The notes under the pieces were generated by a model that made no database searches, was not told the DNA's origin, and worked only from the letters and a program-made list of their open reading frames with translations. DNA of 64,000 nt from Billgrantia tianxiuensis (GTDB lineage Bacteria > Pseudomonadota > Gammaproteobacteria > Pseudomonadales > Halomonadaceae): the NCBI RefSeq assembly GCF_009834345.1, contig NZ_CP035042.1, forward strand, positions 1,364,001 through 1,428,000, in the 5' to 3' direction. Of the stretch, positions 20,681 through 50,438 are shown in pieces. The stretch's first letter is position 1; the number at the start of each line of letters is the position of its first letter. The translations under genes and the position numbers were made by a program.

Positions 20681-20850
20681 AGGGTCTCGCTCTGTGTCGC
20701 GCCTTTGCATTGGCGCAAGAGCCTAGCGGCTCCTGTGGTACTTCTTGCGAAACACGATGCAAGAAACGTTCCAACTGATACTCCGTCGCGGACAGTGGGG
20801 CATTTGGCGTGCTACTGGCTGGTGGCGAGCGAGCCTGATTCGCTCACTGG

Positions 20851-20865
20851 CACCAGTCTGGTGCA
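20851..20865 (+). promoter_or_regulatory. NtrC-binding dyad upstream of nasA
   Basis: GCACCAGTCTGGTGC is an exact GCACC-N5-GGTGC dyad, the NtrC consensus, about 110 bp upstream of the sigma-54 promoter. A GGTGCA half-site at 20891-20896 may add a second weak site. Confidence 0.75.
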
Positions 20866-20962: not shown

Positions 20963-20978
20963 TGGCACGCTTCCTGCT
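20963..20978 (+). promoter_or_regulatory. Sigma-54 promoter of nasA
   Basis: TGGCACGCTTCCTGCT against TGGCACGNNNNTTGCW: one mismatch (C for T in the -12 box), exact GG-to-GC spacing of ten. Predicted start about 20989. Confidence 0.75.
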
Positions 20979-21002: not shown

Positions 21003-21084
21003 GGGCGCCATGCGGTGCCCCAAGCGGCAACGACGCCCGCCAACGCCACCCTTCGGGGGCGGCCGTTGGCGGGCGTCGTCGTTT
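21003..21084 (+). promoter_or_regulatory. ANTAR-type attenuator leader of nasA
   Basis: A first hairpin GGGCGC-CATGCG-GTGCCC (21003-21020) is followed by GGC-AACGAC-GCC (21026-21037), whose hexaloop AACGAC has A1 and G4. That loop merges into the 5' arm of a perfect 16-bp hairpin (21030-21045 with 21064-21079) ending CGTTT, 26 nt before the nasA ATG. Sequestering the arm in the small hairpin would prevent the large one. The first loop has C at position 1, so the first element is less certain. Confidence 0.7.
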
Positions 21085-35147: not shown

Positions 35148-37061
35148 ATGCGTGAGAACCTAACCAAGCTGCTGGCCCTCATGCTGGGCGGGCTGATTCT
35201 TTACACCTCGGCGACCGGCCCCTTCGAGAGCCTGATCCAGCGAGGCATCTTTCTTGCGCTGGTGATCCTGCTGGGACTGACGCTCTACCCGTTGGGCGCG
35301 GGCAAGCGTTGGCGCCCCCTGGGGCTGGCCTGTGACCTTATACTGGCCACCGGCACGGTGTTGGCCTGCGGCTACGTGGTGATGAACTACGAGCGGATCC
35401 TCGTCGAGCTGCCCTGGGCCACGCCACGGGACATGCTGTTCACCGGCGTACTGCTGGTGGCGGTGCTGGAGCTGTCGCGGCGCGCCATCGGCGTGATCTT
35501 CCCGCTGCTGGTGCTGGCGGGGCTGGCCTATGCCTGGCTCGGGGCGGCGATACCCGGGCCGCTGGGGCATCGCGGCTTCGACCTCTACTACATCACCGAG
35601 ACGCTCTATCTCGGCGATCTCGGCGTGTGGGGCATGCTGGTCGGCGTGGCCGCCACCACTATCGCCGCCTTCGTGCTGTTCGGCTGCCTGCTGCTGCACA
35701 CCGGCGGCGGTCAGACCTTCATGGATCTGGCGCTGCGCATCAGCGGGCGTTCGCCGGGCGGCGCCGCCAAGGTGGCCACCGTGGCCTCGGGGCTGTTCGG
35801 CATGGTCAGCGGCAGCGCCGTGGCCAACGTGGCCACCACCGGTAACTTCACCATCCCCATGATGAAGCGGCTCAAGTACCCGGCGCCCTTCGCCTCGGGG
35901 GTAGAGGCGGTGGCTTCCACCGGCGGCCAGATCGCCCCGCCGATTCTGGGGGCGGCGGCCTTCATCATGGCCGAGATCCTCGGCGAGAGTTACCTGCGCA
36001 TCGCGCTGGCCGCGCTGCTGCCCGCCATTCTGTTCTACCTCGGCGTATTCCTGACCATTCACCTGGTCGCGCGGCGGCGCAACCTGCAGGTGGTGCCCGA
36101 CGAGGAGCTGCCGAGCTGGCCGGAGGTGCTGCGCCCGGAGCGGATCATTCCAATCCTGGCGGCGCTGGGCGGGCTTTTCTACGGCGTGCTGTCGGGGCGC
36201 TCGATTCAGATGGCGGCCTTCTACGGCATCCTGATGACGGTGCTGACCTTTGTGCCGTTCGCTTTGCTGGCGCGACGGCCGCTGCGCGAGATCGCCGGCA
36301 AGCTACTCTCGGGGCTGATCGATGCCGGCAAGGGCATGGTGATCATCGGCGTGCTGCTGGCTGGCGCGCAGATGCTGGTAGCCATGATCGGCATGACCGG
36401 CATTGGCGTGACCCTGGCCAGCCTGATCGTCAACGTCGGCGGCCAGTCGCTGTTCCTGGTGGCCTTCATCGTCGGCGGCGTGTGCCTGATCCTGGGCATG
36501 GGTATTCCCACCACGGCGGCCTACGTGTTGGTGGCCTCGGTGCTGGCACCGGCACTCACCACCATTGGTGTCGAGCCGCTGATCGCCCACCTGTTCGTGT
36601 TCTACTTCGCCACCCTCTCGGTGATCACGCCGCCGGTGTGCGTGGCGGTATTCGTCGCGGCGGGCATCGCCGGTACCAACTGGTTGCCGGCAGCGGGCGA
36701 GGCGGTGCGCCTGGCGGCGGCGATCTACGTGATTCCCTTCCTGCTGCTGATCTACCCGGCCCTGGCCGGCTTCGGCGGCGCTTTCGACATCCTGCTGGCC
36801 AGCTCCCAGGGCGTGGTGTTCGTGGTTGCCTTCGCTGCGCTGATGTCGCGGGTGGCGATGAGCGGCCACCGGCTGATGGACGTGGCCGGGCTCGCGCTGG
36901 TGGTGGGGCTGGCGCTGATACCCGGCTGGCTGACCACGGCCGGTGCGCTGCTGCTGCTGGTAGTGCTTTTCGCTCGTCGTCGCCAGCGCCTGGCAGTGGA
37001 TGCCACTCACGAGCAGACACTGGATAGCCACGGCATTCCGGCCAAGGAGACCCATTCATGA
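35148..37061 (+). CDS. TRAP transporter fused 4TM/12TM permease (TAXI type)
   Basis: 637 residues, strongly hydrophobic. The N-terminal ~170 residues correspond to the small DctQ-like part, the rest to the DctM-like permease: GRSPGGAAKVATVASGLFGM, VSGSAVANVATTGNFTIPMM, ASTGGQIAPPILGAAAFIMA, CLILGMGIPTTAAYVLVASV, FYFATLSVITPPVCVAVFVA. This is the typical 4TM/12TM fusion partner of TAXI receptors and imports an organic solute with sodium or protons. It follows the receptor by 21 bp and overlaps the AtuA gene by four (ATGA). Confidence 0.92.
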   Translation: MRENLTKLLALMLGGLILYTSATGPFESLIQRGIFLALVILLGLTLYPLGAGKRWRPLGLACDLILATGTVLACGYVVMNYERILVELPWATPRDMLFTGVLLVAVLELSRRAIGVIFPLLVLAGLAYAWLGAAIPGPLGHRGFDLYYITETLYLGDLGVWGMLVGVAATTIAAFVLFGCLLLHTGGGQTFMDLALRISGRSPGGAAKVATVASGLFGMVSGSAVANVATTGNFTIPMMKRLKYPAPFASGVEAVASTGGQIAPPILGAAAFIMAEILGESYLRIALAALLPAILFYLGVFLTIHLVARRRNLQVVPDEELPSWPEVLRPERIIPILAALGGLFYGVLSGRSIQMAAFYGILMTVLTFVPFALLARRPLREIAGKLLSGLIDAGKGMVIIGVLLAGAQMLVAMIGMTGIGVTLASLIVNVGGQSLFLVAFIVGGVCLILGMGIPTTAAYVLVASVLAPALTTIGVEPLIAHLFVFYFATLSVITPPVCVAVFVAAGIAGTNWLPAAGEAVRLAAAIYVIPFLLLIYPALAGFGGAFDILLASSQGVVFVVAFAALMSRVAMSGHRLMDVAGLALVVGLALIPGWLTTAGALLLLVVLFARRRQRLAVDATHEQTLDSHGIPAKETHS

Positions 37062-38476
37062 CCTTCCTGCTGGGCAGCGGAGCCGGTTTCTCCGGCGACC
37101 GCACCGATGCCGCCATTCCCGTGGTGAGAGAGCTGATTCGCCGTGGCCAGCCCGCCGCGCTGATTTTCGAGACCCTGGGCGAGCGCACCCTGGCGGCGGC
37201 CCACCGTGCCATGCGTGACGACCCGGCGGCGGGCTACGAGCCATTGTTGGAAGAGCTGCTCACACCTGTGCTGGATGACTGCCTGAGGCATGGCATTGCC
37301 ATTCTCGGCAACTTCGGCGCGGCCAACCCGGACGGCGCCTGCCGCGTGGTGGCCGAGCTGGCCGCCCGCAGCGAGCGGGGCGAGGCGAGGATCGGGCGGG
37401 TGCATGGCGATGACATCCGCGCCCGCCTCGGCGAACTGGACCTGCAGCGCTGGGAGGCGGAGAGCCGTGAGCTGCCCGGTGAGGAGGCGCTGATCTCGGC
37501 CAACGTCTATCTCGGTGCTGGGCCCCTGGTCGAGGCACTGGAGTTCGGCGCCGAGGTAGTGGTCAGCGGCCGGGTGGCCGACCCGGCGCTGTTCCTGGCC
37601 CCGCTGGTGCATCACTTCGGCTGGGCCTGGAACGACTGGGACCGCCTGGCCGCCGGCATGATGGCCGGTCACCTGGGCGAGTGCGGTGCCCAGGTCACCG
37701 GTGGGTACTTCGCCGATCCAGGCGTCAAGGACGTTCCCGGTCTGGCCACGGTGGGCTATCCCATCATCGAGGTGGAAGAGGATGGCACCCTGGTGGTGAC
37801 CAAGCCCGCCGGCACCGGCGGCATGGTCACTGCGCGCACGGTCAAGGAGCAGCTGCTCTACGAGGTGCACGATCCCGCCAACTACCTGACCCCTGATGTG
37901 GTGGTGGATCTTTCTGCCGTGCGGGTGGAGGAACTCGGTCCCGATCGGGTGGCGGTCACCGGCATTCGCGGCAAGCCGGCACCGCAGCGCCTCAAGACCA
38001 CCGTCTGCTACGAGGGCGGCTGGCAGGGCGAGGCGGAGATCTCCTACGCCGGACCCAACGCCCTGGCCCGGGCGCAGCTTGCTGCCGAGGTGCTGCGCGA
38101 GCGGCTGACCTTTCGCGCGCCGCCGGAGCTGCGCTCGCGGCTGGACATCGTCGGCCATGCCAGCGTATTCGACAGCGATGCCGGCGACCTGCAACGCAGA
38201 TTGCCGACCGCGGCCAGCGGCGACTACCGCCTGCGGCTGGCCGCCGAGCACGCCGAGCGGCGCTGGGTGGAGCGTGCCACCCAGGAGCTGCTGGCGCTCT
38301 ACTGTGCCGGTCCGGCCGGCGGTGGCGGGGTACGCCGACAGTTCCAGCGGCGGGTATGCACGGCGTCCTACCTGGTCAAGCGCAGCGATGTGGAAGCCTT
38401 CGCCACCCTGTTCGATGCCACTCTTGTCGAGACGAAGATGGCCAGCGAGAGGAGAGTCGCCCATGCCGCACGCTGA
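37058..38476 (+). CDS. AtuA-family (DUF1446) protein, large part
   Basis: 472 residues of the acyclic-terpene-utilisation AtuA/DUF1446 family: LLGSGAGFSGDRTDAAIPVV, ALIFETLGERTLAAAHRAMR, GIAILGNFGAANPDGACRVV, EVVVSGRVADPALFLAPLVH, VTKPAGTGGMVTARTVKEQL. In Pseudomonas, atuA lies in the citronellol/geraniol cluster, but its reaction is unresolved and no other atu genes are here. The tight coupling to a TAXI-TRAP importer implies work on the imported compound. Its end overlaps the start of the small partner by 14 bp. Confidence 0.85.
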   Translation: MTFLLGSGAGFSGDRTDAAIPVVRELIRRGQPAALIFETLGERTLAAAHRAMRDDPAAGYEPLLEELLTPVLDDCLRHGIAILGNFGAANPDGACRVVAELAARSERGEARIGRVHGDDIRARLGELDLQRWEAESRELPGEEALISANVYLGAGPLVEALEFGAEVVVSGRVADPALFLAPLVHHFGWAWNDWDRLAAGMMAGHLGECGAQVTGGYFADPGVKDVPGLATVGYPIIEVEEDGTLVVTKPAGTGGMVTARTVKEQLLYEVHDPANYLTPDVVVDLSAVRVEELGPDRVAVTGIRGKPAPQRLKTTVCYEGGWQGEAEISYAGPNALARAQLAAEVLRERLTFRAPPELRSRLDIVGHASVFDSDAGDLQRRLPTAASGDYRLRLAAEHAERRWVERATQELLALYCAGPAGGGGVRRQFQRRVCTASYLVKRSDVEAFATLFDATLVETKMASERRVAHAAR

Positions 38477-38834
38477 AGTGAACGTGCCCGCAAGCCCAGC
38501 CAAGGGTCACAGCGTACCGCTGCATCGCCTGGCCCATGCCCGTGCCGGCGACAAGGGCGACCGGCTCAACCTGGCGCTGTTCGCCTTCGAGCCGCGCCAC
38601 TATGAGACGCTGGTGGAGCAGGTCACCGAGGAGCGTGTGCTGGCGCTGTTCGCCCATCGCGGGGCGAGCCGGGTACGCCGCTACCTGATGCCGGGCCTTG
38701 CCGGCATGAACCTGGTGATCGATGACGTGCTGCAGGGCGGGGTCAACGGTGCCCTCAATCTGGACGGGCACGGCAAGACGCTCTCCTTCCTGCTGCTGGG
38801 CATGAGTGTGGTGGTCGAGAACGACAATGCGTAA
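38463..38834 (+). CDS. AtuA-like C-terminal partner protein
   Basis: 123 residues matching the separate C-terminal module often found after, or fused to, AtuA: PLHRLAHARAGDKGDRLNLA, LFAFEPRHYETLVEQVTEER and MNLVIDDVLQGGVNGALNLD. HARxGDKGxxxN is the diagnostic motif. It overlaps the AtuA gene and is probably a subunit of the same enzyme. An efficient hairpin terminator follows at 38849. Confidence 0.85.
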   Translation: MPHAEVNVPASPAKGHSVPLHRLAHARAGDKGDRLNLALFAFEPRHYETLVEQVTEERVLALFAHRGASRVRRYLMPGLAGMNLVIDDVLQGGVNGALNLDGHGKTLSFLLLGMSVVVENDNA

Positions 38835-38848
38835 GACACCCCCGGCAC

Positions 38849-38882
38849 GCAAAACGGGCCACCCTTGGGTGGCCCGTTTTGC
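38849..38882. terminator. Bidirectional terminator between the AtuA and nitrate-transport operons
   Basis: GCAAAACGGGCCACCC pairs with GGTGGCCCGTTTTGC around a two-base loop; A and T runs within the outer stem give a U-tract in both directions. It separates two convergent operons. Confidence 0.85.
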
Positions 38883-38900
38883 GCTAGGGGAGTGCGAGGC

Positions 38901-39761
38901 TCACGCCTTGGCCATGCGTTTCTCCTTGGCTTTCTCCTGCTCGCCGCCGGCGCCGCGCCGTTGGGCCAGGCTCTCCACCTTGCGTTGCTTCTCGTAGAGG
39001 AAGCGCAGTACCTCCTGGCGGTAGTGGTTGTAGCGCGGGTCATCGGCCAAGGCGATACGGTCGCGGGGGCGAGGCAGGTCGATGTCGAGTACCTCGCCGA
39101 TGCGCGCCGAGGGGCCGTTGGTCATCATCACGATGCGATCCGAGAGCAGCACCGCCTCGTCGACGTCGTGGGTGATCATGATCATGGTGTTGCCCAGCTC
39201 GTCCTGGATGCGCATCACCTCCTCCTGCAGGTGGGCGCGGGTCAGGGCATCGAGCGCGCCGAAGGGTTCGTCGAGCAGCAGCACCTTGGGCTCCATGGCG
39301 AGTGCCCGGGCAATGCCCACGCGCTGCTTCATGCCGCCGGAGATCTCCGCCGGGCGCTTGTCCAGCGCATGCCCCATGCCGACCATCTCCAGGTTCTTGA
39401 TGATCCACTCGTGACGCTCGGCCTTGCTCTTGGTGCGTGCGCAGGTCTTGTTCACCGCCAGCGCCACGTTCTCGTAGACGGTGAGCCAGGGCAGCAGTGA
39501 GTGGTTCTGGAATACCACGCTGCGTTCCGGCCCCGGTGAGTTGACCTCCTTGCCGTCGAGGATCACCGCGCCGGAAGTGGACTCGATGAGTCCGGCGACG
39601 ATGTTGAGCAGGGTCGACTTGCCGCAGCCGGAGTGGCCGATGATGGAGATGTACTCGCCGCGTTCCACGGCGAGGTCGATGCCCTTGAGAACCTGACTCT
39701 CCACGCCCTTGGCGGTGAACGTCATGTCGACGTTCTCGATGCTTAGATAGTGGTTGCTCAT
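38901..39761 (-). CDS. Nitrate ABC transporter ATP-binding protein
   Basis: 286 residues, a NrtD/SsuB-type ATPase: Walker A GHSGCGKSTLLNIVAGL, Q-loop VFQNHSLLPWLTV, signature SGGMKQRVGIARALAM, Walker B LLLDEPFGALDALTRA, H-loop MITHDVDEAVLLSDRI. It powers uptake through the permease encoded 11 bp upstream. It lacks the NrtA-like C-terminal regulatory domain of NrtC. The ATG at 39761 has AGGA upstream. A Lys/Glu-rich tail ends the protein. Confidence 0.92.
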   Translation of the reverse strand: MSNHYLSIENVDMTFTAKGVESQVLKGIDLAVERGEYISIIGHSGCGKSTLLNIVAGLIESTSGAVILDGKEVNSPGPERSVVFQNHSLLPWLTVYENVALAVNKTCARTKSKAERHEWIIKNLEMVGMGHALDKRPAEISGGMKQRVGIARALAMEPKVLLLDEPFGALDALTRAHLQEEVMRIQDELGNTMIMITHDVDEAVLLSDRIVMMTNGPSARIGEVLDIDLPRPRDRIALADDPRYNHYRQEVLRFLYEKQRKVESLAQRRGAGGEQEKAKEKRMAKA

Positions 39762-39772
39762 GTTCCTGTTCC

Positions 39773-40626
39773 TCAGCCTTGGGCGGTGCCGCGGGTGACG
39801 CGGTTGCCGATGAAGGCGACCAGGCGGTCGAGGGCGAAGCCGACGATGCCGACGTAGATCAGCGCCAGCACGATGTCGCTGATCATCGAGGCGTTCCAGG
39901 CGTCCCAGATGAAGAAACCGATGCCCACGCCGCCGATCAGCATCTCGGCGGCGACGATGGCCAGCCAGGAGAGGCCGACACCGATGCGCAGCCCGAGAAG
40001 ATGTAGGGAGCGGCGGCAGGCAGCATGATGCGGGTGAAATACTCCATGCCGTTGAGACGCAGCACCCGGGCCACGTTGCGGTAGTCCTCGGGAATGTTGC
40101 GGATGCCCACCGAGGTGTTGATGATGATTGGCCAGATCGCGGTGATGAAGATGACGAAGATCGCCGAGGGATTGCTGTCCTGGAAGCCGGCCAGCGAGAT
40201 CGGCAACCAGGCCAGCGGCGGCACGGTGCGCAGCACCTGGAATACCGGATCGAGGCCGCGCATGGCCCAGGTAGACTGGCCCACCAGTACGCCGAGGCCA
40301 ATGCCGGCCGCCACGGCCAGGGAGTAGCCGTAGGCCACCCGCTCGAGGCTGGCGAGTATCTGCCAGGCCATGCCTACGTCGTTGCCGCCGTAGTCGTAGA
40401 AGGGATTGGCGATCAAGTCCCAGGTGTCGCGCAGCATCTGCGATGGAGCCGGCAGGCTGGCTCCCGGGGTTGAGCAGAGGATCTCCCACAGGGCCAGCAG
40501 CAGGCCGATGATCACCACCGGCGGCAGGACTCGCTGGCTGAACAGCTGGCCCGCCCGCTGGACGTGGCCGGACCAGGCGGTACTCGCGACCCGTGGCTCG
40601 CGCTCGTGACTCTGCATGCTTTTCAT
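39773..40626 (-). CDS. nrtB: Nitrate ABC transporter permease, one frameshift
   Basis: About 284 residues once one missing C/G near 39992 is restored (YIFSGLRIGVGLSWLAIVAA). Binding-protein-dependent permease of the NrtB/SsuC type with about six helices: VLPPVVIIGLLLALWEILCS, WQILASLERVAYGYSLAVAA, RTVPPLAWLPISLAGFQDSN, FVIFITAIWPIIINTSVGIR, and the EAA-type loop YRNVARVLRLNGMEYFTRIM. 16 bp downstream of the receptor gene and 11 bp before the ATPase gene. Confidence 0.88.
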
Positions 40627-40642
40627 GCTCGTTCTCCTTGCC

Positions 40643-41944
40643 TCAGGCGAGGCGCTTGATCGCCAGGCTGTCGAGATAGGCCTGGGGATTCTCGGGGTCG
40701 AAGGTCGTCCCGTCGAAGAAGGTCTCGATACCGCGTGAGGAGGCGTCGGGGATGTCGGCGCCGTCCACGCCGAGGGCCGCGGCGGCCTCGCGCCATAGCT
40801 CCTCGCGGTTGACCTGGCGGATCAGCGTCTGGCTGTCGAAGTCGGCCGGCAGGTAGCCCCAGCGCTGGTTCTCGGTCAGGAACCACAAATCGTGACTCTG
40901 GAAGGGATAGGAGGCGAAGTCGCTCCAGTAGCGCATCTGGTGCGGGCTGTCTTCGACGATGCGGCCGGTGCCGTAGTCGAAGTTGCCCTTCATGCGCTCG
41001 ACGATGTCCTCGTAGGGGGCGTTGATCCAGCGCCGCCGAGAGCAAATACGCGCCACTTCCTCCTTGTTCTGCGGTTCCTCGCAGAACATCTGCGCCTCCA
41101 TGATGGCCATCAGCAGCGCCCGGGTGGCGTTGGGATTGGCCTCGACGTAGTCGGCGCGCATTGCAAAGGCTTTCTCCGGATGGTTGTGCCACAGCTCGCT
41201 GGTGGTCAGGGCGGTATAGCCGATGCCCTGGTGGATGAGCTGCTCGTTCCAAGGCTCGCATACGCAGAAGGTGTCCATGCTGCCCACGCGCATGTTGGCC
41301 ACCATCTGGGCAGGGGGCACCACGATGGTGGAGATGTCGCCGTTGGGATCGATGCCCGCCGCCGCCATCCAGTAGCGGATCCACAGGTCGTGGGTGCCGC
41401 CGGGGAAGGTCATGGCGGCGCGCACCTCGTTACCGGCAGCGCGCTTGTCGGCAAGCGCCTGACGGAACTCGCCGGCATCGACACCGACCTCGAGGTCGAG
41501 ATACTCCTGGGCCACGGAGATGCACTGTCCTCCGAGATTGAGGCGCGCCAGGATATGCATCGGCACCGGCACGTTGTTGGGCGTCATGGCACCGCTGGCG
41601 ATCAGGTAGGGCATGGGCGTGAGGATGTGGCCGCCGTCGATGCCGTTGCGCTGCGAACCCAGTACCAGGTTGTCGCGGGTGGTGCCCCAGGAGGATTGCT
41701 TGAGCACCTCCACGTCGGTCATGCCGTGAGCGGCGAAGAAGCCCTTCTCCAGTGCGACGAACAGCGGGGCGGCATCGGTCAGGGCGATGAAGCCTAGCTT
41801 GGCCGAGGTGGTTTCCGGCCGTCCGCTGGCCAGGGCCCAGCTGGCGGGCAGGCTGCCGAGCACGGCCGAGCCCCCGAGGACGGTTGCACTTTGCTTGAGA
41901 AAACGGCGCCGATCGAGCGAGTGTCCCTTGTTGGTCTTGTTCAT
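40643..41944 (-). CDS. nrtA: Nitrate-binding protein of the ABC importer (Tat-exported)
   Basis: 433 residues. The twin-arginine signal DRRRFLKQSATVLGGSAVLG directs folded export. The mature NrtA/CmpA-like fold includes KLGFIALTDAAPLFVALEKG, VLKQSSWGTTRDNLVLGSQR, DGGHILTPMPYLIASGAMTP, TFCVCEPWNEQLIHQGIGY and HNHPEKAFAMRADYVEANPN. Homologous to NasS but exported. Distinguishing nitrate from bicarbonate or cyanate receptors from sequence is imperfect; the ANTAR-type leader and the adjoining nasR and narK support nitrate. The ATG at 41944 has GGAG nine bases upstream, 33 nt after the leader terminator. Confidence 0.9.
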   Translation of the reverse strand: MNKTNKGHSLDRRRFLKQSATVLGGSAVLGSLPASWALASGRPETTSAKLGFIALTDAAPLFVALEKGFFAAHGMTDVEVLKQSSWGTTRDNLVLGSQRNGIDGGHILTPMPYLIASGAMTPNNVPVPMHILARLNLGGQCISVAQEYLDLEVGVDAGEFRQALADKRAAGNEVRAAMTFPGGTHDLWIRYWMAAAGIDPNGDISTIVVPPAQMVANMRVGSMDTFCVCEPWNEQLIHQGIGYTALTTSELWHNHPEKAFAMRADYVEANPNATRALLMAIMEAQMFCEEPQNKEEVARICSRRRWINAPYEDIVERMKGNFDYGTGRIVEDSPHQMRYWSDFASYPFQSHDLWFLTENQRWGYLPADFDSQTLIRQVNREELWREAAAALGVDGADIPDASSRGIETFFDGTTFDPENPQAYLDSLAIKRLA

Positions 41945-41976
41945 TGTATGGCTCCCAGGAGGAAGGATCCGGCGAC

Positions 41977-42086
41977 AAAAAACGGCGCCTGCCCCGATTC
42001 GCATGACATCGTCACGGGAACCTGGGCAGACGCCGTTGTCTGGTCCGAGGGCTGCTTGAAAGCGCTGAACCGTCATTGACTCAGCG
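41977..42086 (-). promoter_or_regulatory. ANTAR-type two-hairpin attenuator of the nrtA operon
   Basis: In transcript sense P1 is CGCTGAGTC-AATGAC-GGTTCAGCG (42086-42063), a 9-bp stem (two G-U pairs) with hexaloop AATGAC. P2 is CAGAC-AACGGC-GTCTG (42042-42027), with hexaloop AACGGC. Both loops have A1 and G4. P2's loop and 3' arm (AACGGCGTCTGCCC) are the 5' arm of an intrinsic terminator whose 3' arm GGGGCAGGCGCCGTT runs into six U (41982-41977). P1 starts about four bases after the predicted sigma-54 start. This is the clearest attenuator in the window. Confidence 0.88.
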
Positions 42087-42099
42087 GACGATCAGGCTT

Positions 42100-42115
42100 T
42101 GCAGCTTGGATGCCA
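42100..42115 (-). promoter_or_regulatory. Sigma-54 promoter of the nrtA operon
   Basis: TGGCATCCAAGCTGCA against TGGCACGNNNNTTGCW, exact spacing; predicted start about 42089. Upstream, GGTGC/GCACC half-sites cluster at 42214-42240 (GGTGCGC, GGTGCACC) as possible NtrC sites, although none is a perfect dyad. The interval between is AT-rich. Confidence 0.7.
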
Positions 42116-42253
42116 TGGCGTTAAATTCGTATTGTTATTTCAATTAAAACAAATAGTTACTGTATATTGAATGATGTCGATCAAATCGTTTCGGTGATCG
42201 CCGGGCGCCGAGAAGGTGCGCAGCGCTTGTGCGGTGCACCATAAAGCGCCCAC

Positions 42254-43618
42254 TCAGTTGGTTGTGCGATCCGCATGCCGTTCCTCTGCGGGAAGCTCCT
42301 CTGTGGAAAGTTTCTCTATGGAAAGTTTCTCTATGGAAGGCTCCTCTGCGGAAGGCTTCAGAATGTCGGCCAGCCCCAGTACGGTCTGGGCGATCTCGGC
42401 CATGCTCTTGCTCTGGTCCATGGCCATCTTGCGCAGGAAAGCGTAGGCCTGCTCTTCGCTCATCTGCTGGTGGGCCATGATCAATCCCTTGGCGCGCTCG
42501 ATCAGCTTGCGCTCACGCAGCGCTCGGCGGGTGCTCTCCAGTTCATCGCTCAGAGCCTGCAGGCGGCTCGCCTGGGCGCACATCAGTTCCACCAGTGAAC
42601 GGTTCAGCGAGGAACCCACGACCCGGGCGGTCACTTCGCCCAGCTCATGGCTGCCGCTGCCGTCGAACAGTTCTACCAGCTGCTGGCAGACGGCCGGCGT
42701 GGCATTGTTCAACTCACGGCTCAGTTCGTCGTGACGTGTCAGGCTGCGGCGCGCGTCGAGGGTCTTGGTCAGACACAGATTCGACAGCTCGCCGATCAGG
42801 AAGGCTTCCACTCGCTGAATGGCGTCGATGCGGCGTGTGGTCAGCTCATACCAGGTCTCGCCCAGGGTGCTGGCGCTCTGTTGCAGGGGCGTATCGCCAC
42901 AGGCCAGTTCGCGCAACTGCTGGATGCCGGCCAGGGTGCGGCCGGGCATTTCGAGCTGCCAGCACTCGCGTCCCGCCGCCGTGGTGAACTCGAGGCAGGT
43001 ATCGAAGCAGCGCTGCTGGGCATCGATCAGATGCAGCAGCAGTTGCCGGTGAGCGTCGTCGAAGTTGCCCGAAGTGAAACCGGAGGCGCCGCAGGCGCGC
43101 TCCTGGCCGGCCAGCTCCTTGCCCTGCATGAGGTGAAAGATGGCCACCAGTGCCAGGGTGATCTCAGGATCGCCGGCGGTATCGGCGACTTCGAATACCA
43201 CCGAGAGCAGGGCGCTGATCAGCTGATTGTAGGCCTGTGTCGCGCCGTCGGGGCTGGTCTCAAGGGCTCCGATGGCGTCGCGCAAACCCGCCTGACCGTC
43301 GAGGGCATGCCAGACATGGGCGATGCGCCTGAGCAGACGGGCCGTGGTGGCAGGGCGCCCGGCACTGTCGCCCAGGGCATCGAGGCGCACGCGCAGGGCC
43401 TGTTCGGTCGCCTGGCTCTCTGCGATGCGCTCGCGGCGCCGCTCGGCGAAGCGCTGTCCCTGCGACGCCAGGTAGACGTTCGAGGCACCACGTTCCTTCT
43501 GCAGGGCATGGACGAAGCGGCTCACGTCACCGACGATATCGCAGGCCGCAGTGAGGTGTTCGAGATCGTCGATCTCGCAGCGTTTGGCGGTCAGAAGCAG
43601 GCGCTCGGCAGGCGTCAT
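42254..43618 (-). CDS. nasR: NasR, nitrate/nitrite-responsive NIT-ANTAR antiterminator
   Basis: 454 residues. N-terminal NIT (nitrate- and nitrite-sensing) domain, about residues 30-290 (FVHALQKERGASNVYLASQG, ALVAIFHLMQGKELAGQERA, GNFDDAHRQLLLHLIDAQQR), then a C-terminal ANTAR domain, about 360-430 (ERKLIERAKGLIMAHQQMSE, LRKMAMDQSKSMAEIAQTVL). In Klebsiella NasR binds nitrate and antiterminates nasF; here it sits beside the nrtA leader, which has the required RNA fold. It ends in a tail made of five 5-residue repeats. The ATG at 43618 has GAGAGGA upstream. It lies 93 bp after narK on the same strand. Confidence 0.92.
   Translation of the reverse strand: MTPAERLLLTAKRCEIDDLEHLTAACDIVGDVSRFVHALQKERGASNVYLASQGQRFAERRRERIAESQATEQALRVRLDALGDSAGRPATTARLLRRIAHVWHALDGQAGLRDAIGALETSPDGATQAYNQLISALLSVVFEVADTAGDPEITLALVAIFHLMQGKELAGQERACGASGFTSGNFDDAHRQLLLHLIDAQQRCFDTCLEFTTAAGRECWQLEMPGRTLAGIQQLRELACGDTPLQQSASTLGETWYELTTRRIDAIQRVEAFLIGELSNLCLTKTLDARRSLTRHDELSRELNNATPAVCQQLVELFDGSGSHELGEVTARVVGSSLNRSLVELMCAQASRLQALSDELESTRRALRERKLIERAKGLIMAHQQMSEEQAYAFLRKMAMDQSKSMAEIAQTVLGLADILKPSAEEPSIEKLSIEKLSTEELPAEERHADRTTN
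42281..42355 (-). repeat. Five tandem 15-bp repeats in the nasR 3' end
   Basis: Units of 15 bp (for example TTTCTCTATGGAAAG) repeat five times, two of them nearly identical, and encode SAEEP-SIEKL-SIEKL-STEEL-PAEER. The in-frame unit length means copy number can vary without a frameshift. Confidence 0.8.
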
Positions 43619-43678
43619 GGTCAATCCTCTCATACACGAGGAACGCCGCCTGCGAGGGCGGCATCAGAACGGGACAGG

Positions 43679-43701
43679 GCCCGGCAGCCAGGCTGCCGGG
43701 C
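43679..43701 (-). other. Strong hairpin between narK and nasR
   Basis: CCCGGCAGC-CTG-GCTGCCGGG directly after the narK stop, followed by a second hairpin GCCGCC-CTCGCA-GGCGGC (43662-43645) whose six-base loop has G at position 4 but C at position 1. There is no U-tract, so it may be an RNA-stability or attenuating element rather than a terminator. Confidence 0.45.
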
Positions 43702-43710
43702 GGCATGCGT

Positions 43711-45062
43711 TCAGCGCAGAGAGAGTGCGCCGGCGCCGGTATCCTCTCCCACGGCATCGCGATAAGCCTGTGCCTCGACGGCCTCCACCTCGTCGCTGAA
43801 GCGCACCAGCAGCGCACAGGAGGCCAGCACCAGCACGACCAGGCCGAGGTAGAACAGCCCCTGCTGGTAGGTGATCGCTTCGCTGCGGAACAGGAAGGCG
43901 GCGGCCACCGCACCCACGTTGCCGCCGGCGCCGACGATACCGGCCACCGCACCCAGGGCCTTCTTGTTGATGAACGGCACCACGCCGTAGGTGGCTCCCT
44001 CGGCCATCTGCACGAACAGGCTGAACACCAGCATGATGCCGATGGCATACGAGAGCACGTGCATCTGCGAGAAGGCGACCAGGGCGATACCCTCGCAGAT
44101 CAGCGCAATGAACAACCAGCGCACGCGGCCCTTGAGTCCACCGTTGCGGGCGAAGAGGTCGGAGAACACGCCGCCCAGGGTGCGGGCGAAGACGTTCATC
44201 AGCCCGAACAGGCCGGCAATCATGCCGGCGGTCGCCAGCGTCAGGTCGAAGTTGTCGAAGAAGTAGATGGCGGCAATGTTGTTGATGGTCAGCTCGACGC
44301 CGAAGCAGATCGCATAGACCACGAACAGCGCCCATACGCGGATGTCCTTGGCTGCGGCGAGGAAGCTCTTGGCCGCCCCGTTGTCGCCGCTGGCTTCGGG
44401 CAATTCGCCCTTGGCGCGCAGTTCGCTGAAGTTGCCGTTCGGCGCGTCCTGGGTGAATAGCCAGTAACCGATACCGGTGACGAACATCACCACGCCCGGC
44501 ACCACCATGGCCAGCCGCCAGCCCAGCGTCTCGCTGACGCCGAGCATCAGCAGGCCGGAGAAGATCAGCGGCATCACGATCTGGGTGGTGCCGCCGCCCA
44601 GGTTGCCCCAGCCGGCACTGGTGGCGTTGGCCGTGCCCACCACGTTGGGGGCGAACATCATGGTGGTGTGGTACTGGGTGATGACAAAGGAGGCGCCGAT
44701 GGCACCGATCGCCAGGCGCGCCAGCAGGAAGGTCTCGAAGCTGTTGGCGAAACCGATGCTCATCACCGGGATCGAGCCGAGCAGCAGCAGCCCGGTATAG
44801 GTCTTGCGCGGCCCGAGTCGGTCGCACAGTACGCCGATCAGCAGCCGCACGATTACGGTGATGGCCACCGAGGCGATGATGGTATTGCCGATCTGGGTCT
44901 GGGTCAGGGCCAGGTCCTCGCGGACCACCGCCATCAGCGGGCAATGCCGAACCAGCCGAAGAAACAGATGTGGAAGGCGAACCAGGAGAAGTGGAAGGCA
45001 CGCATCTGCGGTGTGCGCAGGCTCAAGAGACGAATGCGGTTCGCCTTGTTGAGAATTTCCAT
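43711..45062 (-). CDS. narK: NarK/NasA-type nitrate/nitrite MFS transporter, one frameshift
   Basis: About 451 residues when one C is added to the run at 44939-44941 (FFGWFGIAPLMAVVREDLAL). Twelve helices of the nitrate/nitrite porter family: MRAFHFSWFAFHICFFGWFG, LLIGVLCDRLGPRKTYTGLL (MFS motif A), the nitrate signatures SAGWGNLGGGTTQIVMPLIF and VGAGGNVGAVAAAFLF, and INNIAAIYFFDNF. It imports nitrate and/or exports nitrite. The ATG at 45062 begins MEILNKANRIRLLSLRTPQM. Its upstream region carries sigma-54 and FNR-type sites. It precedes nasR. Confidence 0.9.
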
Positions 45063-45100
45063 GGAATGACCTCGTACGGATTGTCGATACAGGTGTTCGC

Positions 45101-45116
45101 CCTTCTCCGTTGAAGG
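45101..45116 (-). promoter_or_regulatory. Single ANTAR-like hexaloop hairpin in the narK leader
   Basis: CCTTC-AACGGA-GAAGG, a 5-bp stem with an A1/G4 hexaloop sharing AACG with the P2 loops of the nasC, nasA and nrtA leaders. No clear P1 and no terminator follow, so a role in antitermination is doubtful. Confidence 0.4.
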
Positions 45117-45172
45117 TCAGGTCTGACGCACTCGTACTTCCTCAGGAAGCCTGGTCCACGCCTACCCAGCAG

Positions 45173-45186
45173 TTGATCCATATCAA
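45173..45186. promoter_or_regulatory. Perfect FNR/Anr box upstream of narK
   Basis: TTGATCCATATCAA is an exact TTGAT-N4-ATCAA palindrome, 111 bp upstream of the narK ATG. It spans about -11 to +3 relative to the predicted sigma-54 start, a position that suits repression. Confidence 0.75.
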
Positions 45187-45201
45187 GCAATCTGTTTGCC
45201 A
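45186..45201 (-). promoter_or_regulatory. Sigma-54 promoter of narK
   Basis: TGGCAAACAGATTGCT against TGGCACGNNNNTTGCW: exact -12 TTGCT, -24 TGGCA, correct spacing. Predicted start about 45175. Confidence 0.75.
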
Positions 45202-45306
45202 CGTCTTTTGCTTCTTCTTTTAAAACATTGTGTTGTGGCTAAATTGAGGGGGCGTGACCGTGTCGGGTGAGTTCGAGGGTATGGCAAGAATGGTGCAGTG
45301 CCGCAG

Positions 45307-45339
45307 AAAAATGCCCCCTGCTGGTGCTGCAGGGGGCAT
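45307..45339 (-). terminator. Rho-independent terminator of the YkuD-like transpeptidase gene
   Basis: ATGCCCCCTGC pairs with GCAGGGGGCAT; on the minus strand it is followed by a run of U. It ends transcription coming from 45379 and insulates the narK promoter region. Confidence 0.85.
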
Positions 45340-45378
45340 GGAACGAGGTCCAGGAACCGGGAGCGAACCGAAGTGAAC

Positions 45379-46118
45379 TCAGTTCATGGCCCACTGGGCT
45401 GGCTCGCGATCGCAGCTGAGAAAGGCGGAGGTCTCCAGCCACTCGGGATCGGGGTAATAGACGAACAGGTAGTGATCTTCCTTGATGCTGTCGATCAGTG
45501 GATAGGTCACTTCCTGGCGTACCGCGGGGCAGCCGTGGCTGCGGCCCAGCCGGCCGGTCTGGCGGATGAAGGCTTCGCTGACGTAGTCGGCGCCATGGAT
45601 GACGATGGCACGCTGGTAGGCCAGGTCGTTGACACCCGCTTCCAGCCCTTCCAGGCGCAGCGAGTATCCGTTGCGCCCGTAATAGCTGTTCATGGTGCGG
45701 AACAATCCCAGGCTCGACTGGTAGCTCTCGGGGGTGTTGGAGAAGATCGTGGCCTCGGCATCGCCCGAGCCACGGCCGTGGGAAACCAGTTCCTCGAACA
45801 GCAGCCGCTCCTGTGCCAGGTCAAAGACCCACAGGCGTGGCTCGGTGGAGGGGAGTGAATAGTCGATGACGGCCAGCCGCTCGGCTCCGGGCTCGGCACA
45901 GGCCAGCGCGTTGGCGGCCAACTGCAGGACCTGCGGGTCGGCACCGGGGCGAGGCGCGTCAGGGTCTGGCTCAGCGGGTGGGTAGCTGCGGGAAAGAGCT
46001 TGGCCTGGGCCAGGAAATCGCCGGCCTGAGCGGTGGCGGGAAGGGTGGTGGGCAGGGTAGCCAGCAGTGAAGCGGCCAGGCTCGGTAGCGAAAGTCGCAG
46101 GAACGGTAGAAAGCGCAT
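45379..46118 (-). CDS. Murein L,D-transpeptidase catalytic-domain protein (YkuD_2-like), one frameshift
   Basis: About 246 residues after one G/C is added at 45946-45949 (TRLAPGADPQVLQLAANALA). A signal peptide (MRFLPFLRLSLPSLAASLLA) is followed by the catalytic domain: LAVIDYSLPSTEPRLWVFDL, SHGRGSGDAEATIFSN, AIVIHGADYVSEAF and GRSHGCPAVRQEV, with the active-site Cys in SHGCPAV. It is secreted to the periplasm and probably acts on peptidoglycan cross-links. It is divergently oriented from the larger L,D-transpeptidase gene at 46283; the 164-bp gap would hold both promoters. Confidence 0.82.
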
Positions 46119-46282
46119 GACATGCCTATGACGTAAGTACCGCAGGCGGCGGGCGCCGCGCGCGGCAGGTAAGCGTAAACGAGATGAACGGACCCGGCTG
46201 GCTTGCAGCCATGTGCCAGGCACTATTATGAAGAGAGAGGCCAGGAAGGCCAGACCGGCTATCAACGGAGCAGGAGCGAAAG

Positions 46283-47911
46283 ATGCGCTGTATTGCACGG
46301 ATGGGAATGCTGATAATGCTGCTCGGCCTGGCGCCCATGGCCTGGTCGGAGCAGCAGGGCGAGGCAAGGCCCGAGGGGGAGTCTGGTGTGGCACAGGCAT
46401 TGGCGCGTCAGGTGGCCTCGGAGGCGCCACGCCTGCAGGACTTCTATGCCCAGCGCGACTACCGTCCGGCATGGCAGGAGGCCGACACCGTGGCGGCATT
46501 CACCTCGGCATTGCATGGCCTCGAAAGCGATGGCCTCCATCCACAGGACTATCGCCCGGATGAGCTGAGATCCCGGTACCGTGCGATCCAGGAGGATGGC
46601 GCCAATGCGGCGGCGCAGGCGCAATACGATCTATTCGCCACTCGGATGCTGCTCACGGCGCTGACCCACCTGCAGCGGGGCAAGGTGGATCCCGAGGCGC
46701 TCGAAACCGATTGGGAGGTGCCTGTAGCGGAACCCGACTTCTCGCTCGGCACGGTGTCCCGCGCAGTGGATCGACAGCGATTCGAAGCGCTGTTCGATGA
46801 GGTGAGGCCGGACTTCGTTCCTTACGAGCGGCTGCGTTCGGGGCTGGCACGCTATCGCCATATCGAGCGGCTCGGCGGCTGGCCGCGCTTGCCGGCGCGT
46901 GAGCAGTCGCTGCGTCCGGGCGATGTCGACGACGATGTTGCACTGCTGCGCGAGCGCTTGTCCGTGATGGGTGAGCTCGAGCTGATGGCCGTCAATACCA
47001 ATGCCTTTCCTGACGCCGAAATCGAGGCACCCGATGCGCGTCGCTACGATGCCGGACTCGAGGCTGCGGTAAAGCGCTTTCAGCGCCGGCACTTGCTGGA
47101 GCCGGATGGTATTGTCGGGCGTCAGACCCGGGAGGCACTCAACGTCCCGGTTGAGCGGCGCATCGATCAGATCCGCCTCAACATGGAGCGCGCCCGCTGG
47201 CTGTTGCACGGGCTGCCGGATGCCTTCGTGCTGGTCGACATCGCCGGCTACCGGCTCAGCTATTTCCGGCCCGATGGCGAAGTCTGGCGCTCACGTATCG
47301 TGGTAGGTCGACCCTATCGGCGTACACCCTCGTTGCGCTCCGAAATCACCCACATGACCGTCAATCCCACCTGGACGATTCCGCCCACCATTCTGCGCCA
47401 GGACGTGCTACCCGCGGTGCGCCGCGACCTTGGCTACCTGTGGCGGGAGCGAATTCAGGTACTGAGCCCTTCCGGACAGCCCCTCGACCCCTGGCGGGTC
47501 GATTGGGACAATCCCGGCAACATCGTACTGCGGCAGGCTCCCGGACCGCAGAATGCCTTGGGACAGCTCGCCATCCGTTTTCCCAACGACCACATGGTCT
47601 ATCTCCACGACACTCCGGCCCAGGGACTTTTCTCCCGTGAACAGCGGGCTTTCAGCTCCGGTTGCATCCGTGTCGAGAACATTCGTGAATTGGCTCGCTT
47701 GCTGTTCGAGGACACCAACAGCGAGCATGACATCGAGGCGCGCATCGCTAGCGGTGAAACGCGCAACGTCTCGCTCGCCAACAGGATGCCGGTCATCATC
47801 CACTACTGGACGGTAAACCCGGATGATGACGGCGAGTTCTCGTTCCGCCCCGACATTTACGAGCGTGACGATGCCCTGCTGAGGGAATTGGATCGCCCGC
47901 TGGTGCTGTGA
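46283..47911 (+). CDS. ldtD: L,D-transpeptidase (YcbB/LdtD family)
   Basis: 542 residues. Signal peptide (MGMLIMLLGLAPMAWSEQQ), a scaffold domain (DFYAQRDYRPAWQEADTVAA), a peptidoglycan-binding domain (FQRRHLLEPDGIVGRQTREAL) and a C-terminal YkuD domain (HMTVNPTWTIPPTILRQDVL) with the catalytic HDTPAQGLF and SSGCIRVEN motifs. The enzyme forms 3-3 cross-links between meso-DAP residues in the periplasm and provides beta-lactam-insensitive cross-linking. Length agrees with the family (about 540-620). Predicted active. Confidence 0.9.
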   Translation: MRCIARMGMLIMLLGLAPMAWSEQQGEARPEGESGVAQALARQVASEAPRLQDFYAQRDYRPAWQEADTVAAFTSALHGLESDGLHPQDYRPDELRSRYRAIQEDGANAAAQAQYDLFATRMLLTALTHLQRGKVDPEALETDWEVPVAEPDFSLGTVSRAVDRQRFEALFDEVRPDFVPYERLRSGLARYRHIERLGGWPRLPAREQSLRPGDVDDDVALLRERLSVMGELELMAVNTNAFPDAEIEAPDARRYDAGLEAAVKRFQRRHLLEPDGIVGRQTREALNVPVERRIDQIRLNMERARWLLHGLPDAFVLVDIAGYRLSYFRPDGEVWRSRIVVGRPYRRTPSLRSEITHMTVNPTWTIPPTILRQDVLPAVRRDLGYLWRERIQVLSPSGQPLDPWRVDWDNPGNIVLRQAPGPQNALGQLAIRFPNDHMVYLHDTPAQGLFSREQRAFSSGCIRVENIRELARLLFEDTNSEHDIEARIASGETRNVSLANRMPVIIHYWTVNPDDDGEFSFRPDIYERDDALLRELDRPLVL

Positions 47912-47960
47912 GCCAACGGGCGGGGAAGGCCCCGGCCACTTCCTGTGACCGGGGCCGTGG

Positions 47961-48224
47961 CTAAGCCAGGCGCGCCCCGCAGCGCGGACAGACTTCGCCG
48001 AGACTTTCGCTCACACCGGGGGCGGTGCTGGAAGGCGCCACGGTTTCATTCTTGGGGGCGAAGCGTTCCGGGTTGATCGGCACCAGCTTGCCGCGTTCCC
48101 AGCGCAGGCCGATGTCCTTGAGCATGCGTGGATCGCAGTCGCGCAGCAGGGTATCGCGCTGGCGATTGGCGTAGAAGTTACGTACGGCGCTAAGCAGGCG
48201 ACGGGTAGTGTGTAGTGCTGCCAT
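47961..48224 (-). CDS. DUF1127 (YjiS-like) small protein with C-terminal zinc-ribbon-like pair
   Basis: 87 residues. The DUF1127 core is RLLSAVRNFYANRQRDTLLR and CDPRMLKDIGLRWERGKLVP, found in many short proteobacterial proteins, some linked to RNA turnover or phosphate and stress responses. The end CPRCGARLA is a half zinc knuckle not usual in the family. It converges on ldtD; a GGCCCCGG/CCGGGGCC hairpin at about 47927-47955 lies between the two stops. Function unknown. Confidence 0.8.
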   Translation of the reverse strand: MAALHTTRRLLSAVRNFYANRQRDTLLRDCDPRMLKDIGLRWERGKLVPINPERFAPKNETVAPSSTAPGVSESLGEVCPRCGARLA

Positions 48225-48578
48225 GATCTCGGTCTCCTTGAGTGGAGGCCGGGAACTTGTGCGCGACGGGTGGGAAAAGTGCTATCCAGGCTTGGCCGCG
48301 ACAAGTGCCGCGGCCAGCGTCCTTCAAGTGTCGTCGTTTCGACGGCCGGCCCACGGCAGCAGCAAACAGGTACGCATCGCGTTAATGCATACGCGATGTT
48401 GCCAATTTGCCTTGTTGCCTGGAAGTAGCCGCATGAGGAACGCGTCTCGATTGAGGGATTGGTTGGGATTGTGCCGCATCGACGATACGACTCTTTTCTT
48501 ATAGACAATCGCTCAACAAGCGTCAACGGATGAATGGCGCCTGCGCGAAAAAACTGCTCACGAGGTCGTTTTCAGGAC
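48225..48578. other. Intergenic region, no gene seen
   Basis: About 354 bp upstream of the DUF1127 gene and downstream of the ABC-exporter gene. It should carry the DUF1127 promoter (minus strand). No reading frame or strong hairpin is evident. Confidence 0.4.
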
Positions 48579-50438
48579 CTAGCGATAGCCCTCGGCCTGC
48601 AGCCGAAACAATCTCGCATAGCGGCCGTTCTGGGCCATCAGGCTGTCGTGGTCGCCGCGCTCGATGACCTCGCCGCCGTCGATCACGAGGATCTGGTCGG
48701 CGGCGCGCACCGTGGAGAAGCGGTGCGAGATGAGGATGGTCATCTTGTCGCGGCGGTGCTCGCGGAAGTCGGCATAAACGGCCGCTTCGGCGGCGGCGTC
48801 CATGGCCGCGGTGGGTTCGTCCAGCACCAGGATGTCGGCGCTCTCGCGCATGTAGGCCCGGGCCAGGGCGATCTTCTGCCACTGGCCGCCGGAGAGCTCC
48901 TGGCCGCCCTTGAACCAGCGACCCAACTGGGTGTGGTAGCCGCCGGGCATGGCGCGGATGAACTCGTCGGCCAGGCCGCGCTCGGCCGCTTCGTGCCAGC
49001 GTGCCTCGTCGCCGAAGGCCTCGACGTCGCCGGCACCGAGGTTTTCCCCTACCTTGAGCTGGTAGCGCACGAAGTCCTGGAAGATCACGCCGATGCGCCG
49101 GCGCAGGGTGGCCAGGTCCCATTCGCGCAGGTCGCTGCCGTCGAGCAGGATGCGGCCATTGCTGGGTTCGTAGAGACGGGTGAGCAGTTTGATCAGCGTG
49201 GTCTTGCCGGAGCCATTGGCGCCTACCAGTGCCAGGCTCTGCCCTGGCGCCACATGCAGGGAAATGTCGCAAAGGGCAGGCTGCTCGGCGCCGGGGTAGG
49301 TGAAGCCGACGTTCTCGAAGCGAATGCCGTCTCCCGGCCTGGCACCTATGGTCAAGGTGCCGCTCTGCGGTGCTACCGGCTGCTCCAGATACTCGTAGAG
49401 GTTCGACAGGTAGAGGTTGTCCTCGTACATGCCGCTGATCGAGGTGAGGCTGGCCGACAGCGCTGACTGGCCCTGCTTGAACACCATCAGGTACATGGTC
49501 ATCTCGCCCAGGGTCAGGCTGCCCGATACGGTTTCCACTACCACCCAGGCGTAGGCGCCATAAAACGCCAGCGTGCCCAGCAGACCGAGCAGGAAGCCCC
49601 AAGTCTCCCGGCGGATGGTCAGGCGACGATCCTCGCCGTAGAGGGTGTCGAAGATTCTGCGGTAGCGCTCGAGCAGCAGCGGCTCCAGGCCGAACAGCTT
49701 GACCTCCTTGATGCTGTCTTCCCGGGCCAGCACGGTTTCCAGGTACATCTGCATGCGGGTCTGGGGTGAGCGCCAGCGGAACAGGCGGAAGGCATCGCCG
49801 GAGAACTTGGCCTCGGAGACGAACACCGGCAGGGCGCCGATCACCAGGATCAGGATCGCCCAGGGTGAGAACTGCACCAACAGCACGCCGAAGCTGACCA
49901 GCGAGATGGCGTTCTGCAGCAGCGAGAAGGTCTTGTTGACCAGGCCCAATGGGCGTATCGACGCCTCGCGCCGGGCGCGGGTGAGCTTGTCGTAGAATTC
50001 GGAGTCCTCGAACTGGGCAAGCGTGAGGGTGCCGGCCTTCTCGAGGATCATGACGTTGACCTTCTGCCCCAACAGCGCGCGCAGCAGCGACTGCTGGGCC
50101 GAGAGGCCCCTCTGGGCCAGGGCGATGGCGGCAATCACGCCGGCTTCCGCCAGTACGTAGCGCAGCACCTGCCAGGCGGATTCAAGCGTTAGCGCGGCCC
50201 CGGTGTCGCGGTGATGGGCCATGGCCGCGACCACCGCGTCGACGATCAACTGGCCGATCCAGGCGGCCACCGCCGGCAGCACGCCGGCGACCAAGGTGCA
50301 CAGCGCAAGCCCCAAGGTGAGGGCGCGCGAGGTTTGCCACACCAGCAGGAGTGCCCGGCGGCTGTAGCGAAAGACACCGAAGAAGGCGGCCAGGCGATTG
50401 CCGTTAGCTGGCGGAGGGGCTGGGGTGAAACGACGCAT
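48579..50438 (-). CDS. ABC exporter, fused membrane and ATPase domains
   Basis: 619 residues. About six helices (residues 25-330: LTLGLALCTLVAGVLPAVAA, VLLVQFSPWAILILVIGALP, FLLGLLGTLAFYGAYAWVVV) are followed by an ATPase domain: Walker A LVGANGSGKTTLIKLL, Q-loop VIFQDFVRYQ, signature ELSGGQWQKIALARAY, Walker B ILVLDEPTAAMDAAAE, H-loop ILISHRFSTVRAAD. It is of the MsbA/multidrug-exporter class and probably works as a homodimer; the substrate is unknown. The start at 50438 is the first Met before the conserved part; upstream codons overlap a terminator. Confidence 0.88.
   Translation of the reverse strand: MRRFTPAPPPANGNRLAAFFGVFRYSRRALLLVWQTSRALTLGLALCTLVAGVLPAVAAWIGQLIVDAVVAAMAHHRDTGAALTLESAWQVLRYVLAEAGVIAAIALAQRGLSAQQSLLRALLGQKVNVMILEKAGTLTLAQFEDSEFYDKLTRARREASIRPLGLVNKTFSLLQNAISLVSFGVLLVQFSPWAILILVIGALPVFVSEAKFSGDAFRLFRWRSPQTRMQMYLETVLAREDSIKEVKLFGLEPLLLERYRRIFDTLYGEDRRLTIRRETWGFLLGLLGTLAFYGAYAWVVVETVSGSLTLGEMTMYLMVFKQGQSALSASLTSISGMYEDNLYLSNLYEYLEQPVAPQSGTLTIGARPGDGIRFENVGFTYPGAEQPALCDISLHVAPGQSLALVGANGSGKTTLIKLLTRLYEPSNGRILLDGSDLREWDLATLRRRIGVIFQDFVRYQLKVGENLGAGDVEAFGDEARWHEAAERGLADEFIRAMPGGYHTQLGRWFKGGQELSGGQWQKIALARAYMRESADILVLDEPTAAMDAAAEAAVYADFREHRRDKMTILISHRFSTVRAADQILVIDGGEVIERGDHDSLMAQNGRYARLFRLQAEGYR

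Follow-up and report, generated by a model that had tools for sequence, protein, structure and literature searches.

A probable NasR-operated leader before the nrtABC nitrate importer genes of Billgrantia tianxiuensis

Introduction

The leader of the Klebsiella oxytoca nasFEDCBA operon is acted on by a NIT-ANTAR protein that controls nitrate assimilation; as set out in the relevant sections of its descriptions, the loops of its two hairpins, P1 and P2, carry A1 and G4, and P2 overlaps a terminator (PMC3369936, PMC3369931). Nitrate-responsive ANTAR antitermination also precedes the assimilation genes of Paracoccus denitrificans, where the protein is NasT and the leader that of nasA (PMC3795266, PMC5424462, in the parts that deal with this leader). 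The EutV leaders of Enterococcus faecalis are likewise described, in the corresponding parts of two papers, as pairs of A1/G4 hexaloop hairpins of which the second is exclusive with a terminator (PMC3369931, PMC8934654). Some members of the Halomonas desiderata group are reported to carry both NasR and NasST, 'implicating possible dual regulation' (PMC8014003).

The window analyzed here, a stretch of 64,000 nucleotides of the Billgrantia tianxiuensis genome, contains a leader before nrtA that shares these features and belongs to the known NasR/ANTAR kind of leader, not to a new kind. Unlike in Klebsiella, narK lies upstream of nasR, and the nitrate and nitrite reductase genes are found at a distance of about 20 kb, where they have their own leaders and their own NasS-NasT pair. 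The P. denitrificans system, as far as the passages on it go, differs from the nrtA leader in having a separate protein, NasS, as its sensor, and is a better fit to the two other ANTAR-type leaders found in the window. What is new here is the presence of NasS-NasT and two further ANTAR-type leaders beside NasR; the co-occurrence of the proteins has itself been published, as the passage in that study states (PMC8014003). The nrtA leader extends the textbook Klebsiella nitrate switch to the halophilic Halomonadaceae, with strong comparative support.

Results

Architecture of the nrtA leader

Read along the minus strand from 42086 to 41977, the leader consists of P1, a 20-nt linker, P2 and a terminator followed by nrtA, with a sigma-54-type promoter directly 5' of P1. 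The gene order places narK upstream of nasR, and nrtB and nrtC downstream of nrtA. The features of this region are as follows.

42254 to 43633, minus strand: nasR, NIT-ANTAR antiterminator protein, the next gene upstream of the leader
42101 to 42115, minus strand: sigma-54-type promoter element TGGCATCCAAGCTGC (GG-N10-GC)
42086 to 42063, minus strand: P1 hairpin, CGCUGAGUC and GGUUCAGCG enclosing the loop AAUGAC; nine pairs, two of them G-U; loop with A1 and G4
42043 to 42062, minus strand: 20-nt linker separating the core stems of P1 and P2
42042 to 42027, minus strand: P2 antiterminator hairpin, CAGAC-AACGGC-GUCUG; five pairs; loop with A1 and G4
41977 to 42037, minus strand: intrinsic terminator, its 5' arm formed by the loop and 3' strand of P2; hairpin from 42037 to 41981
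40643 to 41944, minus strand: nrtA, nitrate-binding protein of the ABC importer; best solved relative NrtA (2g29)
39791 to 40707, minus strand: nrtB, permease, with one break in its reading frame near 39990
38901 to 39761, minus strand: nrtC, nitrate ABC transporter ATPase; TIGR01184 above its cut-off

ANTAR-target RNAs are recognized by two hexaloop hairpins of at least three pairs each, by A1 and G4 in both loops, and by a P2 that overlaps and excludes an intrinsic terminator. The nrtA leader has nine and five pairs in its two hairpins, and both of its loops, AAUGAC and AACGGC, carry the A1/G4 signature that the preliminary description had noticed. The terminator was also placed correctly there, with its 5' arm inside P2 and a tail of six T (U in RNA), which lies at 41982-41977; the distance from the last of these to the A of the nrtA start codon (41944), given earlier as 33 nt, is 32 nt. 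P2 and the terminator cannot coexist, because the terminator builds its 5' arm out of the P2 loop and 3' strand.

The sigma-54-type element has the GG-N10-GC pattern, and sigma-54 is encoded in the genome. Element and P1 were accepted as a pair at separations of 18-48 nt; in all 13 gammaproteobacterial nrtA leaders processed, the element begins 29-36 nt 5' of P1, a distance to P1 similar to that seen here. The start position itself is a prediction: if, as we assume, the RNA starts 12 nt after the GC of the element, P1 begins 3 nt further on, which agrees with the earlier proposal that it follows the start by about four. A search for NtrC sites accepted none before nrtA and one palindrome before nasA. 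A potential pairing of the -12 region with the flank of P2, seen in some relatives, was dropped as a candidate feature; it lies 5' of the predicted start and is absent, by eye, in L009.

Folding of the leader RNA

Taken alone, the terminator hairpin has a folding energy of -41.7 kcal/mol, compared with -4.9 for P2 and -9.3 for P1. In simulated folds of the growing RNA, P1 and P2 are present at lengths of 60-90 nt and the terminator displaces both at 100 nt or more, an exchange that bears out the mutual exclusion proposed in the preliminary description. These energies and folds suggest that termination is the likely default and that P2 must be held to prevent it. The 110-nt leader folds with a z-score of -5.56; in the minimum-energy structure two of the six terminator U pair with both A of the P2 loop, and at full length this structure breaks up P1, which counts against the mechanism we favor below. 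A composite score for P1, P2 and terminator, from a scorer written with this leader already known, reached 96.5, compared with a maximum of 69.7 in 60 shuffles of the window. A simple terminator scan returned no sites across 41900-42300.

Covariance models and conservation

The preliminary description had proposed a covariance search with the ANTAR RNA model. We built a model, R2, on 12 leaders from seven Halomonadaceae and five betaproteobacteria; its training set includes one from the genus of the window (L137, Billgrantia endophytica) and excludes the window as well as L131, L133 and L134, the relatives nearest to it. R2 matches the nrtA leader with an E-value of 1.6e-12 when the window is searched and of 1.3e-10 in the 5.0-Mb genome, where it is the sole significant match among the 150 of 2073 candidates that were scored, the next having an E-value of 0.11. 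An Rfam scan of positions 36000-50000 gave no ANTAR-type match up to an E-value of 10. The narrower model R1, built on 15 short-linker leaders, placed the nrtA leader second of 14 matches in the window (E-value 0.06), with P1 misplaced, and did not include it among 15 matches up to an E-value of 10 in the genome, where 150 of 5164 candidates were scored. The search thus identified the leader with R2, but Rfam returned no ANTAR match and R1 a weak one; R1, which barely scored the nrtA leader, was set aside as too narrow.

The paired positions of P1 and P2 have been maintained among relatives. In alignment A4, six of 13 pairs show changes on both sides, compared with a mean of 2.9 in shuffled alignments (one of 500 shuffles was as high), a figure to be read with the caveat that the training hairpins were selected by a scanner requiring paired stems. 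The same alignment has 97.4% of its cells paired, compared with at most 41.9% when the strands are slid, and its count of extra pair types does not exceed that of the shuffles. Together with the architecture, these results confirm the nrtA leader as it was first observed.

The leader and its terminator extend beyond close relatives. Among 21 loci processed (L188-L210 minus L190 and L196, the latter omitted because it has no nrtA match), in 20 the complete set of P1, P2 and terminator precedes a distant nrtA-like gene (35-38% identity), and most of these loci come from named betaproteobacteria; the exception, L200, a Larsenimonas, has its leader before narK. The omitted locus L196 gave a weak R2 match (E-value 4.3e-4).

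NasR and its neighborhood

The product of the gene upstream of the leader has an N-terminal NIT domain (PF08376, 157 bits) and a C-terminal ANTAR domain (PF03861, 70.5 bits), the domain pair by which NasR is recognized, and is related to Klebsiella NasR (4akk; E-value 4.3e-51); it has no match in NCBIfam. It retains the counterparts of R176, R193, R236 (identified by eye), R340 and E359, while E191 is replaced by A and W362 by Y. The arginines expected of a NasR, R176, R236 and R340, are therefore all present. We take R176 and R236 to have a role in nitrate sensing; the supposed nitrate-site arginines, R179 and R241 in this protein, are invariant across 12 aligned NasR proteins. In Klebsiella NasR, RNA binding is reported to require R340 (PMC7496416). 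The replacement of E191, part of auto-inhibition in Klebsiella NasR, counts against our preferred explanation.

The closest named relatives of the nrtA locus are Billgrantia species. Compared with an intact relative, the frames of narK (at about 44940) and nrtB (at about 39990) are each broken once; as the listed completeness of the genome is 95.2%, compared with 99-100% in most relatives, sequencing error is the likely cause. A further sigma-54-type element lies 5' of narK (45201-45187) and adjoins a TTGAT-N4-ATCAA box, which is presumably FNR/Anr-like. No ANTAR leader was seen before narK in this window, unlike in Salinicola.

NasR as the likely regulator of the nrtA leader

In order to relate the leader to its possible regulators, we surveyed 151 genomes of the family; the co-occurrence figures are raw counts that ignore kinship. 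NasR is present in 50 genomes by hand count (at least 200 bits; G137, with the gene in two pieces, counted and the 78-residue fragment of G023 excluded). A close nrtA (E-value up to 1e-100, a cut under which distant nrtA-like genes such as those of L048 and L050 fall) occurs in 12, all of them within the 50 with NasR. A close NasT (at least 79% identical, E-value up to 3e-98) was counted by hand in 35, including nine of the 12 with nrtA; in the other three (G054, G069 and G121) the search for NasT finds nothing better than the ANTAR domain of NasR. Since every nrtA genome has NasR and three of them lack NasT, NasR is, on comparative grounds, the likely regulator of the nrtA leader.

R2 matches up to an E-value of 0.01 were found in 30 of the 151 genomes. 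Those below 1e-9 come from 11 genomes, each with nrtA and NasR, although six of the eleven leaders belonged to the training set; the remaining 19 genomes have matches between 3.7e-5 and 0.01, some at narK leaders or adjoining nasT. The sole nrtA genome missed is G054 (L124), in which a sigma-54 element stands 42 nt before P2, and P2 and the terminator are present; no hexaloop hairpin was found 5' of this P2, which counts against the preferred explanation. Among 58 nasR loci of named Halomonadaceae (L131-L187 and L190; L231, L232 and L235 repeat L133, L134 and L137), R2 scored below 1e-9 in eight of eight with nrtA, three of which (L137, L138 and L173) were in its training set, and in none of 50 without; four of these 50, in Salinicola, have weaker matches before narK.

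These observations argue strongly that NasR operates the leader as a transcription attenuator controlling the nrtABC nitrate importer. Transcription would start at a sigma-54 promoter, presumably activated when nitrogen is limiting, and give an RNA that begins with P1. In the absence of nitrate, the very stable terminator would take up the loop and 3' strand of P2, so that transcription would end before nrtA. With nitrate or nitrite present, NasR from the upstream neighbor would bind the hexaloops of P1 and P2 and keep P2 folded; the terminator would then be unable to close, and polymerase would continue into nrtABC. The earlier suggestion that an ANTAR protein switches the importer on is supported and is narrowed by the comparative evidence to NasR; very probably, the mechanism is the one first proposed, with NasR as its likely regulator, and it matches what has been described for EutV and for the nasF leader of Klebsiella.

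Two other readings were weighed. In the first, NasT, freed from NasS by nitrate, opens the nrtA leader alone or together with NasR, and the leaders of the cluster all belong to a single regulon. The presence of nasT and a nasS-like gene about 20 kb off in the same window, the close NasT in nine of 12 nrtA genomes and the P2 loops of the three leaders, which differ by one letter only (AACGGC, AACGAC), are all in its favor. It is nevertheless improbable, as G054, G069 and G121 have nrtA and a P2/terminator leader without NasT, and none of the 11 R2 matches below 1e-9 falls in a genome free of NasR (the family search used stricter filters). Cross-action by NasT on the nrtA leader may still occur. 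That the hairpin is just the ordinary terminator of narK-nasR transcripts, with P1 and the P2 alternative incidental, is very unlikely. In favor of this reading, the hairpin is the sole strong terminator seen between nasR and nrtA, and in G149, which lacks NasR and a close nrtA, a hairpin directly after narK (L125, 6507-6451) shares 51 of 57 bases with the nrtA P2/terminator. Against it, where nrtA occurs the pairing of both P1 and P2 is retained through compensating changes, and the position of P1 after the sigma-54 element is kept. The G149 hairpin is still preceded by CAGAC, has one mismatch in the P2 stem and lacks a hexaloop hairpin over the preceding 115 bases; in this one genome it may be either a remnant or a forerunner. 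The leader hairpin may well serve both the narK-nasR end and the control of nrtA.

A second ANTAR system in the same window

The first dual-hairpin scan required unbroken stems and found only the nrtA leader; a looser scan for P2 and terminator added two leaders, near a NasS-NasT pair.

20039 to 20710, minus strand: nasT, receiver-ANTAR protein
20042 to 19002, minus strand: nasS-like gene, after nasT
18766 to 18864, minus strand: second ANTAR-type leader; P1 at 18864-18845 with loop AAAGGC, P2 loop AACGAC at 18830-18825, terminator to 18766
21003 to 21081, plus strand: third leader, before a nasA-like nitrate reductase reading frame (21110); P2 loop AACGAC at 21029-21034, and terminator

The second leader precedes a NirB-like reductase reading frame, whose start was taken at 18717, and nirB. 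The nasA-like frame after the third has only NCBIfam matches below cut-off, and the first hairpin of that leader has the loop CAUGCG, without A1, a loop that varies among relatives. Genome-wide, the pattern AACGRCGYC-N22-52-GGCGYCGTY matches the three leaders and nothing else; its reversed control matches once. Descriptions of the nirB and nasA leaders were not found in the open-access literature searched.

Sixteen genus members have NasT without NasR by hand count. Four of these (G111, G136, G147 and G149) have both the nirB and nasA leaders and three (G123, G130 and G141) have the nasA leader alone by the exact pattern, which shows neither in the other nine; the pattern undercounts, as a near-match was found in G105. 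Because these leaders occur without NasR, their regulation by NasT would suit the distribution, and NasR may act on them too.

With NasS-NasT and the nirB and nasA leaders in the same window as NasR, a single nitrate cluster may be served by two antitermination systems. We put forward tentatively, as something rather less than an even prospect, that they divide it, NasR acting on the importer leader and NasS-NasT on those of nirB and nasA; with P2 loops almost the same, it would be P1 and the spacing that set the choice, and NasR leaders would tolerate linkers of about 7 to 86 nt, a range outside the tight spacing rule derived from EutV. The window points to genomes with NasR and NasS-NasT beside three related leaders, and a single strain could address both how ANTAR proteins distinguish similar targets and how far apart two hexaloops can be.

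A perfect palindrome, GCACCAGTCTGGTGC, is present at 20850-20864, about 100 bases 5' of the nasA sigma-54 element TGGCACGCTTCCTGC (20963-20977), and is of a kind that we take to be typical of NtrC sites.

Linker length

The passages on spacing in the eut work give linkers of 5-12 nt, with 14 nt strongly reducing induction (PMC3369931), and report that the insertion of 20 nt abolished antitermination (PMC8934654). Unlike these tightly spaced EutV leaders, the nrtA leader has a linker of 20 nt, in excess of the eut range, which counts against the preferred explanation. In growing-RNA folds this linker contains a small hairpin, and the P2 stem is extended into it, a shortcut that leaves 3-4 unpaired nucleotides and one small hairpin up to the extended stem and does not surpass what shuffled linkers give (z = -0.28). 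No general rule of structured linkers is claimed: against letter shuffles the z-scores spread between about +1 and -4.1, and nrtA leaders show no consistent excess.

Longer spans were found in Salinicola and other genera of the family, where the leader is located before narK. In 14 such narK leaders from related genera, automated selection placed P1 47-86 nt from P2 in ten and 7 nt from it in three, and chose no P1 in one. The long span is uncertain in three of the ten (L182, L035 and L040), since they have a further A1/G4 hairpin 6-8 nt 5' of P2; the remaining long spans sit badly with the EutV spacing limits as given in those passages (PMC3369931, PMC8934654). In the narK leaders of L034, L035 and L040, P2 is accompanied by two more A1/G4 hexaloop hairpins, 68-70 nt and 6-8 nt away from it, which makes three in each leader.
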